From assembly GCA_012032775.1 (NCBI GenBank), contig JAAUQO010000005.1, forward strand, positions 1 through 64,000: DNA of 64,000 nt. Reading direction: 5' to 3'. The DNA comes from Oscillochloris sp. (GTDB lineage: Bacteria; Chloroflexota; Chloroflexia; Chloroflexales; Chloroflexaceae). Within the stretch, counting starts at the first letter, position 1, and the number at the start of each line of letters is the position of its first letter. Of the stretch, positions 32,332-36,738 are shown piece by piece. Under the pieces are notes generated by a model. That model was not told where the DNA came from, ran no database searches, and saw only the letters and a list, made by a program, of their open reading frames with translations. Made by a program: the position numbers and the translations under genes.

Positions 32332-34710
32332 TCACAAATCCCCGTACAACTCAAGTAACTCGCGCCATTCGCCGGTGAGTTCTTCGCGGCGGGCCGCATA
32401 GTAAAAATGCGGTTCGCCCATCTCATCAAGATAGACCAGATCGACCTGGCTGCGCATTGGGCGCGTATAGCCCAGGTTGCCCCACCAGCGAATCTTCTCC
32501 GGGTCGAGCGGGATATCCTGCTGGTACATACGGGCGGCGTACTCACGAACCGTGCCAAGCTCAATGTCTTGCAAGCGCCACGGCACGCCGCTTACATCGC
32601 CGGTGCGCAGGTTGCGGAAGATGTATTGCCACTCGCCGTTCTCATCACAGTCGGCACTCACAACCTCGATGCCGGTACGCGGGCGAGCCACCCGAATCAG
32701 ATTGAGCCAGGCTTCGGTGAGTTTTTCAAAGGGAACGCCGTTGTACTCCTGCTGGCCCTCGCCGTCCTTCTCCTTCATGATCAGATCGAAGCGCACCCGG
32801 CTTGTCGAGTCGCGGTAAACCGCCGCCAATCCACCCCGCCCGCGCCAGCGCACCTTGCGCGTGCCCCAGACATCGGGATCGAGCGTTTCAACCGGCTCAA
32901 TCGGCGCTTCTGGCTCATTTATCGATAGTGGCGGCGCCTCTTCCTCACGTTCGAACGCGCCGTTTTCGGTCTCGATCGCCTGCGCCGCATTGGGATCGCC
33001 GAGCAGATTCGACCACGCTTCGCTCAGCCCCCAATCACTGACGCCGAAGAAGACATGATCGATCACGCCGTTCACATCACGATGCACCAGATCGTATTTA
33101 ACGCGGCTCCCCTGGCGATAGGCGCGCCAGAGGCCAAGCCGGCCCTGCCAGCGTACCTGACTTTGCAGATCAACCCGTCCTTCGCGCAAGTCTTCGTGGC
33201 GACTGATCGCATAGGCCCACAAACCCTGGGCGCGGTCGCGGGTAACGCCGGCGGTAGTACGTAAGTCGCGCACCTCATACAGCCAGACACCGCCACGCTT
33301 CTGACTGCTGACGATCTGCACGCCCGAGCGGGGCAGATCGATATCTTCGCCGTTGTCGAGTGGTGACGAGGCACCCTCGGCGATCGCCCGCCGGCACAGT
33401 TGAATAATCTCGCTGCGGTCGGCGGCGCTGGTTTCGCCATCGCGGCGCACATAGATCACGCCGTCGGATCCAACATAGGGCGGCGGCTCCGAGGCCTTCA
33501 CCTCGACGCGCATGACATCGCGGCCTTCGTAGCTCATCAACTCAAATGAAAGGTACGGCTCAGGGCTGATCTGCTCATTCACCCCGCGCCGCAACGCTTC
33601 GCTGACATGATCGGGGCGCTGGACACCGACGACTTTGCCGTCGGGCATGATCCCGATCACCAGGACACCGCCGCCGGTATTGGCCAGCGCCGCTACATCG
33701 CTCCAGAGTTGCGTTGCACCCTGAGGATCACTGTCGAGCGCACGGAGGATCTGGCGCTCGCTGGAGCCGTTGAAGCGGGCGGCATCAACCTGCCACTGCT
33801 TCTGATCGCGCTTCGGTACCCGCACCCGGTCGAAATCCCGGCTCGCCAGAAGGTCGCGCAAAGCATCGAAACTGTTATCAGGTAGTAGTAACTCGACATA
33901 ACGATCGCCAATACCATGGCGATGCATCGTCTGCATCTCGCCGTTCCCAGCCCGGCGCAGGCGGTGCGCATCGCTACCCTGGAGGCAGAACATCCGCCGC
34001 TCATAGTGTTCGGTTTTGCCGTTGTAAAAACCGGGTGAGGTAAACTTCTCGTGGTCGGTGTAGAAATTCACGAACTCCAGTGCATGCAGATGCGAACTCT
34101 GCGTCACGGCGATGCGGGCCTGGCCGCTGGTGCCAAGCCGGAGCGTTTCGGTGATCACGCCATTCGGGCCATTGGCGTGGGGTGCGATCACCAGGCCGCC
34201 CGAGCGCGCGATAATGTCATAGGCTTCCGTAACGTGGCGCGTGTTGGAAACCCCACATAGGCCGGCTTTCAATTGGGTCGGTGGTACGCCGAGTTGTAGT
34301 AATGTCGCTTCAATCAAACTAATCGGATGATTTGGTGGGAAGATACCGAGAATATGGGCGCCGAAGTGGGATGTAAACTCGAAACCCGGCAGCACCGTAA
34401 CCTTCGCCAGTAATCGCCGATATTCGGTCAGTCGCTCTTGCTCTTCCGTTGTCAGGCGGCCGGCCGCCTCAAATGTGGTCAGAAAATCGATATCACGCTG
34501 AAATTGTTCGTAGCCGTGAACCGTATTATGATCGGTAAAGGCGATGATTTCCAACTCACGCCGTTCGGCCTCTTGTAGTATCTCCAGATAGGTTGCCTGA
34601 GGTTCGGCATAATCCTCAGAGGCGGGCGTGTGTAGATGCAGGTCGGCGCGCATCCAGCGCATACTGTTGCGCGTTTCGGCCGAAGTGCTCATATTCTTTT
34701 TGCTCCACAA
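32332..34710 (-). CDS. PHP-family phosphoesterase fused to AlbA_2 (Schlafen/AAA_4-like) domain with C-terminal repeats of unknown function
   Basis: MRADLHLHTPASEDY, IIAFTDHNTVHGYEQF and FCLQGSDAHRLRR (PHP motifs); ALANTGGGVLVIGIMPDGKVVGVQRPDH, VKASEPPPYVGSDGVIYVRRDGETSAADRSEI (AlbA_2 core); then repeated (K/Q)VRWxGxxGLxxxYRxxSRVxxDL blocks. Confidence 0.85.
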   Translation of the reverse strand: MWSKKNMSTSAETRNSMRWMRADLHLHTPASEDYAEPQATYLEILQEAERRELEIIAFTDHNTVHGYEQFQRDIDFLTTFEAAGRLTTEEQERLTEYRRLLAKVTVLPGFEFTSHFGAHILGIFPPNHPISLIEATLLQLGVPPTQLKAGLCGVSNTRHVTEAYDIIARSGGLVIAPHANGPNGVITETLRLGTSGQARIAVTQSSHLHALEFVNFYTDHEKFTSPGFYNGKTEHYERRMFCLQGSDAHRLRRAGNGEMQTMHRHGIGDRYVELLLPDNSFDALRDLLASRDFDRVRVPKRDQKQWQVDAARFNGSSERQILRALDSDPQGATQLWSDVAALANTGGGVLVIGIMPDGKVVGVQRPDHVSEALRRGVNEQISPEPYLSFELMSYEGRDVMRVEVKASEPPPYVGSDGVIYVRRDGETSAADRSEIIQLCRRAIAEGASSPLDNGEDIDLPRSGVQIVSSQKRGGVWLYEVRDLRTTAGVTRDRAQGLWAYAISRHEDLREGRVDLQSQVRWQGRLGLWRAYRQGSRVKYDLVHRDVNGVIDHVFFGVSDWGLSEAWSNLLGDPNAAQAIETENGAFEREEEAPPLSINEPEAPIEPVETLDPDVWGTRKVRWRGRGGLAAVYRDSTSRVRFDLIMKEKDGEGQQEYNGVPFEKLTEAWLNLIRVARPRTGIEVVSADCDENGEWQYIFRNLRTGDVSGVPWRLQDIELGTVREYAARMYQQDIPLDPEKIRWWGNLGYTRPMRSQVDLVYLDEMGEPHFYYAARREELTGEWRELLELYGDL

Positions 34711-34929
34711 TCAAGATAGTTTGCTCTCTGAAAGATCTCTCCAGGGTTTTTTCTTTTACGGCAGGCGCAATAACAGTGGGTCGCCTATTGCCGCAGGGCC
34801 TCCTTTCCAGGTAAAGTGCCATTCTTACTCTCATCTCTGCTGCGCTGTAACTGTCTTGCCGCGCAGACCTAATGTTTTACCACACCATCTTACCCGAAAC
34901 CGCGCAAAACGACAATAAGGAAGGAATGT

Positions 34930-35590
34930 ATGGATAGCGAGCGCTAGCGAACAGACGGCATTTCAGCGGCTGCGCTCGGGTATTCCGGCGCCTGAGAGCG
35001 GTTCGATCGCCCTGAATGGGCCGATTGTGGCCGAGCAGATCGGGGCGCAGATCTTTAGCGACGGCTGGGCGATGGTCTGTCCACATGATCCTGACGGCGC
35101 CGTTGTGCTTGCCCGTGCCGCCGCACAGGTGAGTCACGATGGGGTTGCGGTTGATGCCGCCTGTTTGCTGGCGGCCATGGCGGCGGCGGCGTTCGGCGGC
35201 CACGATATTCCGACGCTGTTACAGATTGGATTAGAGCGGGTTTCTCCTGACTCAGCGATTGCCCGCCTGGCCACGGAATTGCTACACATCGTAGGTGTGA
35301 ATCGGATTGGCGGGCGGCGCGGGTATGGCTGGCAACCCACTACGGCTACGACCGCTATCCAGGCAATTGTCATGTGATGCCCAACCACGGAGTGCTACTG
35401 CTGGTGTTGCTGTGAGGTGATGGGGATTTGAGTCGTTCACCCTGGTTGCATCGGTGGGTGGGCATCGGTTGTCGGCCCAGGTAGGTGATCTCGATCCGGC
35501 GGGCGCGGCAGCCATTGTGGTAGAAGCCGGCATGCTCACGGCACGGTGCGTGCGGATCTATCGGGCTGAAAAATCCGATATTTCAAATAT
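34930..35590 (+). pseudogene. Decayed ADP-ribosylglycohydrolase (DraG/ARH-like) remnant
   Basis: In one frame RLRSGIPAPESGSIALNGPIVAEQIGAQIFSDGWAMVCPHDPDGAVVLARAAAQVSHDGVAV...LLQIGLERVSPDSAIARL. Another frame: WLATHYGYDRYPGNCHVMPNHGVLLLVLL. Further frame: GDGDLSRS..TLVASVGG. N-terminus and the metal-binding DTD-containing C-terminal core are absent. Confidence 0.65.
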
Positions 35591-35643: not shown

Positions 35644-35758
35644 CGACGTTTTAGTCAAAATCGACTCAGTATGAAGCCGATACTGTGTCTTCAGGCATCC
35701 GGCTAAGCGCCCGGCGCGAACCTGGCATAGTTGGAGATGCCTCAAAGGAGGCTTGCGT

Positions 35759-36738
35759 ATGTCCACAAATGGCGCTTATTTACCGCAGCGCGTACGCACC
35801 ATGACAGCGAGATGGATGGCTTCCTTGAGGACATCCAGCGTATCCAGGGTTTGAGCAACAACACAATCACCTCATACCGTTGCGATCTGCGCACAGCGGC
35901 CGGAATGCTGGAGATGTCGTTGAGCGAAGTTTCATCCGACGACATCCAGCAGTTTCTGGCCTCGCGCAATGAGCAACCGGGAACCACCAATCGACGGATC
36001 GCCAGTCTGGGGCGGTTCTTCCGCTGGGCGCTCGATCAGGGATACGTGGACGAGAACCCGGTTGAGCAGATTAGCGCCCGCCAGCACGCCGAGCATCGAC
36101 CTCAGCCAATCGTGAGTGAGACGGAGCGGCGGGCGTTGGATGCGGCGATCGCCGCCGCCGGCCAACCCTACCGACTGATTTTTACCCTGTTGCGTGAGAT
36201 CGGCGTACGCACCGACGAAGTCCTGAATCTGAATATGGGCGATGTGATTTTGGAGCCGGGCCGCGAGTTGTTGCTCGTGAACGACAGCAAGAGCGGCAGC
36301 AAACGGATGGTGGTGCTGACACCCGATGCGATGCCGCGTTCACTCCGCGGGCTGCGCAGTTGGATGCGTGAAATGGAAGAAGATCTCCCGCCCGCCACGC
36401 CGCTTTTCCGCTCATCGCGCGGGAACCGTGCTTCGTATGACACGTTGCATCGGCGTTGGGTGCAGGTATGTAAGGCGGCGCGCCTGGTTGACATCATTGA
36501 CGGGCGCGAGGTGCCGCGCTATACCTTGCATCACCTGCGCCACACAGCCGCAGCGGAGTTGATCGCATTTTACCCCGAGCAGGTCGTACGGCGTATTCTC
36601 GGCCATCGCGATCCGCGCAGTACGCGGCGCTACGCTGAGATTGTGCGCACGAATGCGGCCTTTAGCAATGGGCATAGTGCGAACGGCCACAACGGGAACG
36701 GGTTACGGGCGAATCACCGCGAACAACAGGCATCGTAG
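35759..36738 (+). CDS. Tyrosine recombinase (XerC/D-like phage integrase family), apparent frameshift near 35800
   Basis: AAAGGAGG SD before ATG 35759. Catalytic set: R (IGVRTDEVL), K (SKSGSKRMV), HxxR (LHHLRHTAA), H (LGHRDP), Y (RRYAEIV). SAM-like N-domain LEDIQRIQGLSNNTITSYRCDLRTAAGML. Confidence 0.88.

Follow-up and report, generated by a model that had tools for sequence, protein, structure and literature searches.

The minus strand of the window (the whole 64,000-nucleotide stretch of Oscillochloris DNA that was analysed) encodes a protein in which a PHP phosphoesterase domain, an AlbA_2 (Schlafen-core-like) domain and a repeated C-terminal module are joined in one open reading frame. 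The gene was present in all 45 near-complete genomes of the order Chloroflexales. It was initially proposed, on the sequence alone, to belong to an undescribed defence or effector system. Since the gene shows the pattern of a housekeeping gene, that proposal is unsupported. We tentatively suggest instead that the protein is a housekeeping phosphoesterase specific to this lineage, with nucleic-acid ends as its substrate, probably the 5' ends of RNA as in RNase AM/Rnm. A search of the available literature found no paper on the combination of PHP and AlbA_2 domains.

Gene and domain architecture

The open reading frame (32332-34710, minus strand) is intact and encodes 792 residues when counted from TTG at 34710. 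This start is probably wrong. In 30 of 40 close relatives an in-frame stop lies immediately 5' of the matching methionine, and inspection of the sequence showed GGAG, a probable ribosome-binding site (34703..34706, minus strand), 10 nt before ATG 34692. We therefore favour a coding sequence of 32332..34692 (minus strand, 786 residues); the residue numbers of the domains below are counted from TTG 34710. The motifs quoted in the sequence-only reading (DLHLHTPASEDY, FTDHNTVHGY, GSDAHR and ANTGGGVLVIGI) were all found in the frame, and its assignment of PHP, AlbA_2 and repeated C-terminal blocks to one protein was confirmed by Pfam, NCBIfam and profile comparison. The profile of the family matched both PHP phosphoesterases and Schlafen cores among solved structures.

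The PHP domain (residues 17-295; 33826..34662, minus strand) is of the TrlF/Ppl type, as judged from Pfam, NCBIfam and ligand conservation. The Pfam PHP match (residues 23-74, E 8e-5) was slightly below the curated cut-off. The NCBIfam TrlF profile covered the whole PHP region (residues 17-272, E 5e-26; 91.6 bits against a family cut-off of 350), and the Ppl profile matched about the same residues (17-272, E 1e-15; 56.8 of 1000 bits). Weak NCBIfam matches of the region included the PHP domains of RNase RNM, DnaE and PolC. The metal-ligand motifs of the PHP superfamily (HxH, D, H, E, H, DxH) are present, and the presumed ligands are H25, H27, D33, D60, H61, E111, H119, H178, D247 and H249. Of 51 representatives, about 47-51 keep these residues. 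Genus g21 (family f4; L052, L053) departs from this pattern: there the ligands are erased while the AlbA_2 domain and the modules are retained. The PHP catalytic domain is therefore not always needed; since essentially all other lineages keep the ligands, catalysis would normally be under selection. The loci of genus g21 (L052, L053, L125-L129) come from genomes of ~3 Mb. In another locus, L054, asparagine replaces D247, and a stand-alone PHP protein of the nucleoside-bisphosphatase/RNase Rnm type (E 3e-57 and 6e-54) is encoded directly upstream of the fusion gene (L054:6099-7100, plus strand). The idea that this neighbour replaces a dead PHP domain was dropped, because most of the L054 ligands are intact.

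The AlbA_2 domain (residues 334-430; 33421..33711, minus strand) was clearly recognised by Pfam (PF04326, SLFN_AlbA_2; E 4e-17, 63.1 bits, cut-off 25.3). Its conserved residues are N344, G347, G348, P411 and R422, and the core motifs N-x-GGG, P-Y and V-R-R are shared with SLFN5, SLFN11, SLFN13 and bacterial AlbA_2 proteins. Unlike the Schlafen proteins, however, the protein has a single AlbA_2 domain fused to PHP, and the glutamates of the E-x4-E(FK) motif are missing. The E-x4-EFK motif of the reference L103 has no retained counterpart in the family, so that the Glu, Glu, Asp triad of Schlafen-type nucleases lacks both glutamates. Both glutamates of ExxxxEFK are essential for cleavage by SLFN13 (PMC5862951). 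It is therefore unlikely, as far as can be judged from the two glutamates, that the domain has a Schlafen-type nuclease activity. That it binds nucleic acid may fairly be supposed.

The remainder of the protein consists of related blocks of different size. The first copy of the module, with halves A and B (residues 458-575; 32986..33339, minus strand), occurs in nearly all members examined. It is followed by a half-module of B only (residues 616-675; 32686..32865, minus strand) and a diverged second copy (residues 676-790; 32341..32685, minus strand). Self-comparison with hhalign aligned the first copy with the second (P 97, E 2e-11) and with the half-module (P 97, E 7e-11). The two to three diverged blocks described earlier are thus real repeats but not equal copies. 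The second full module was found in members of the Chloroflexales type. No family in Pfam or NCBIfam matched the first copy. The AlphaFold model of the module (AF2, 48 aligned segments) reached a pLDDT of 86 and predicted the order strand-strand-helix, strand-strand-strand-helix; a Foldseek search of this model against the PDB and viral models gave no match at E below 0.08. The full-length model (13 sequences) had a pLDDT of 46 and was set aside. The composition of the module gives no obvious sign of RNA binding, its net charge being close to zero (median +1). Of the "novel repeated sensing domain" claimed earlier, the uncharacterised repeats are confirmed; the module is at present a domain of unknown function. 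Some members (L064, L069, L077 and L080) continue beyond the module in a long tail that is rich in Pro/Ala and has RRR(R) patches.

Outside the PHP-AlbA_2 family, the module occurred once among 400 genomes of the phylum. This occurrence is a NYN-domain protein, P0002, of genome G472 (L120:6786-8315; module score 102 bits). It carries the same C-terminal module, but NYN and an OST-HTH-like sequence take the place of PHP-AlbA_2; the OST-HTH-like part is our own reading of the residues, with no profile match. An alignment search of the 400 genomes found no PHP-AlbA_2 match in G472. NYN relatives in other genomes, including chromosomes of 5.26 Mb and 5.80 Mb, are without the module. The gene after P0002, on the opposite strand, encodes enolase. 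A protein of another lineage of the phylum (L121:4346-6508; G478, a 1.4 Mb genome) has PHP and AlbA_2 in the same order as the protein in the window, but shows only about 26% identity and is without the C-terminal module.

Distribution, inheritance and neighbourhood

The order was surveyed in 61 genomes, of which those with a completeness of 90% or more and a contamination of 5% or less were taken as near-complete (the 45 genomes above). Within the order, most orthologues align over nearly their whole length at about 58-80% identity, and the gene is single-copy. Close relatives found by contig scan belong to Chloroflexales such as Candidatus Chloroploca and Viridilinea. Obg, an essential GTPase whose gene lies beside the PHP-AlbA_2 gene, was likewise found in 45/45 of the same genomes, with similar identities.

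At the level of the class, the protein was present in 74 of 93 high-quality genomes. In the phylum, the alignment search of the 400 genomes revealed full-length relatives in further families; many others came from a search around G472. The members outside the order, which mostly have one module, extend through the class and into other classes of the phylum. Both a form with one module and a form with three blocks occur in family f110. Paralogues of these two forms were also seen within the same genomes outside the order (L170 and L172; G522 and G550), and may have arisen by duplication or transfer. Neither whole genera of family f13 nor family f5 gave any match in the class and phylum searches; the gene is therefore dispensable there.

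In a tree of 88 members, the 23 family labels required 22 changes, which is the minimum, against a mean of 64 for shuffled labels. The tree matches the taxonomy and the gene is vertically inherited. The median dN/dS was 0.032 in g9, 0.050 in g5 and 0.063 in g4, three genera of Chloroflexales; these values are rough, some synonymous distances being saturated. The gene is under strong purifying selection. Among the parts of the protein, constraint was strongest on module 1 in g5, g4 and g21; in g9 the PHP domain ranked first and module 1 next. AlbA_2 was under the least constraint. Near-universal presence, a single copy and a vertical tree thus characterise the gene in the order as a core gene.

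Conserved synteny was not found within the Chloroflexales, where the flanks vary. Outside this order, 20 loci from 14 families carry lon upstream of the gene and in the same orientation, mostly within a few hundred bases. The lon-linked members present in the tree sit in one branch (23 rows, support 92). A gene for a lone receiver domain lies between lon and the PHP-AlbA_2 gene in L106, L108 and L109 according to Pfam, and in L110 and L112 by sequence inspection. The link to lon is missing in Chloroflexales, including the window. In the window, the neighbours named by the sequence-only reading were both borne out by profile matches. One is a truncated ADP-ribosylglycohydrolase (34919-35374, plus strand; positions 95-208 of 287 of PF03747), probably a remnant, and the other a XerC/XerD-like tyrosine recombinase (35731-36738, plus strand) whose scores fall well short of the XerC and XerD equivalog cut-offs. 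This neighbourhood is local to the genome, and the flanks of the relatives differ.

The flanks were also searched for defence genes with PADLOC, which was applied to 99 flanking proteins. The result rests on the matches listed, 25 of 44 matched families. Among them, BrxL was assigned to 6 proteins, which equals the number of Lon proteins (6, Pfam), and PD-T4-6, mad6 and PglW were assigned to 3, which equals the number of protein kinases. We read these matches as cross-hits of Lon and ordinary protein kinases and rejected a defence island; the neighbourhood check proposed earlier thus yielded no defence-specific gene among the matches listed. The whole protein was not found in the phage collection. 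In the plasmid collection nothing matched but the PHP part of Ppl (about 25% identity), and the viral contigs contained only PHP-SMC and other AlbA_2 proteins.

A patchy or mobile distribution in a defence-island context, as expected of an anti-phage system, was therefore not seen; the gene is near-universal and vertical. Given the presence in 45/45 genomes of the order and 74/93 of the class, the vertical tree and a conservation about like that of Obg, the claim of an undescribed defence or effector system is not supported. The sequence-only reading had itself named core genes across Chloroflexota as the pattern that would speak against it. This pattern was largely found, and the defence reading is therefore unsupported.

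Proposed function and alternatives

The PHP domain would be a metal-dependent catalyst that hydrolyses phosphoesters at nucleic-acid ends. The substrate would probably be RNA 5' ends, as with RNase AM/Rnm, and the AlbA_2-like domain, having lost the Schlafen glutamates, might hold the nucleic acid together with the C-terminal module. The role would then lie in the processing or decay of RNA, as a housekeeping or stress-linked function, and not in defence. We infer the phosphoesterase activity, the RNA substrate and the role in RNA processing or decay. Of the nucleic-acid-processing effector proposed earlier, the nucleic-acid processing is thus supported and the effector role is not.

RNA is favoured as the substrate because of the NYN-module fusion, seen in one genome, and the precedent of RNase AM. 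In E. coli RNase AM the PHP domain acts as a 5'-3' exoribonuclease and has a site for three metals (PMC9410882). RNase AM/Rnm (YciV) and the protein in the window have the metal-dependent phosphoesterase fold of PHP in common, but the RNase AM/Rnm profile, which contains neither an AlbA_2 domain nor the module, matched only weakly (E 2e-4, 20.7 bits) and below its equivalog cut-off of 375. Several observations speak against the proposed function. The NYN link comes from a single genome, and the lon link is missing in Chloroflexales. Genus g21 is without the PHP ligands, and the gene was not detected in the f13 genera or f5. In addition, the closest PHP relatives by score, TrlF and Ppl, have SMC-like ATPases and could themselves have DNA as substrate.

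An alternative that we consider rather improbable is that the protein is a housekeeping enzyme of DNA-end processing or repair, with PHP as a DNA nuclease or phosphatase and AlbA_2 and the modules as DNA-binding parts. DnaE and PolC, the weak matches mentioned above, contain PHP domains, and the TrlF/Ppl relatives L122 and L101 carry ATPases of the SMC/RecF type. TrlF and Ppl share the N-terminal PHP domain with the protein in the window, which, however, has no ATPase and carries AlbA_2 and the new module instead. No recurrent DNA-repair neighbour was seen in the flanks examined, and the sole other carrier of the module that was found has a ribonuclease-type domain, NYN.

Genus g21 lost all PHP ligands while module 1 is still its most conserved part. 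This fact, and the lone receiver gene between lon and the PHP-AlbA_2 gene in some families, would agree with a regulator in which AlbA_2 and the module form the sensing or binding part, for a ligand or for nucleic acid, and PHP is mainly a scaffold or acts on a small phosphorylated signal. Such a regulator seems unlikely to us: outside g21, essentially every lineage has retained the PHP ligands, a sign that catalysis is normally under selection. An anti-phage effector, a PHP nuclease triggered via AlbA_2 and the repeats, is highly improbable: AlbA_2 and Schlafen domains do occur in defence proteins and the PHP part resembles the PADLOC defence family Ppl (E 1e-9), but the Ppl score is just 34.9 bits, the SMC ATPase part of this anti-phage protein is missing, neither phage or plasmid carriage nor a defence-specific neighbour among the PADLOC matches listed was found, and, unlike Ppl/TrlF, the protein is core, near-universal in single copy and vertically inherited, with a dN/dS of about 0.03-0.06. 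PHP and AlbA_2 beside a recombinase, therefore, need not mean defence.

Returning to the RNA-end phosphoesterase, we may extend it by a speculation that we hold to be doubtful. The module could be a new RNA-binding fold, the protein a Chloroflexota-specific 5'-end RNA-processing enzyme with lon-linked stress control, and the module could once have been transferred onto a NYN RNase that replaced the PHP protein in the G472 lineage.

The family offers a testable active site and a newly delimited domain, whose confidently predicted fold matches no solved structure. The loss of the PHP ligands in g21 is a natural experiment, and lon is an operon-like partner outside the Chloroflexales. A gene as conserved as an essential GTPase across a large lineage, and belonging to no named family, marks a gap in basic cell biology.
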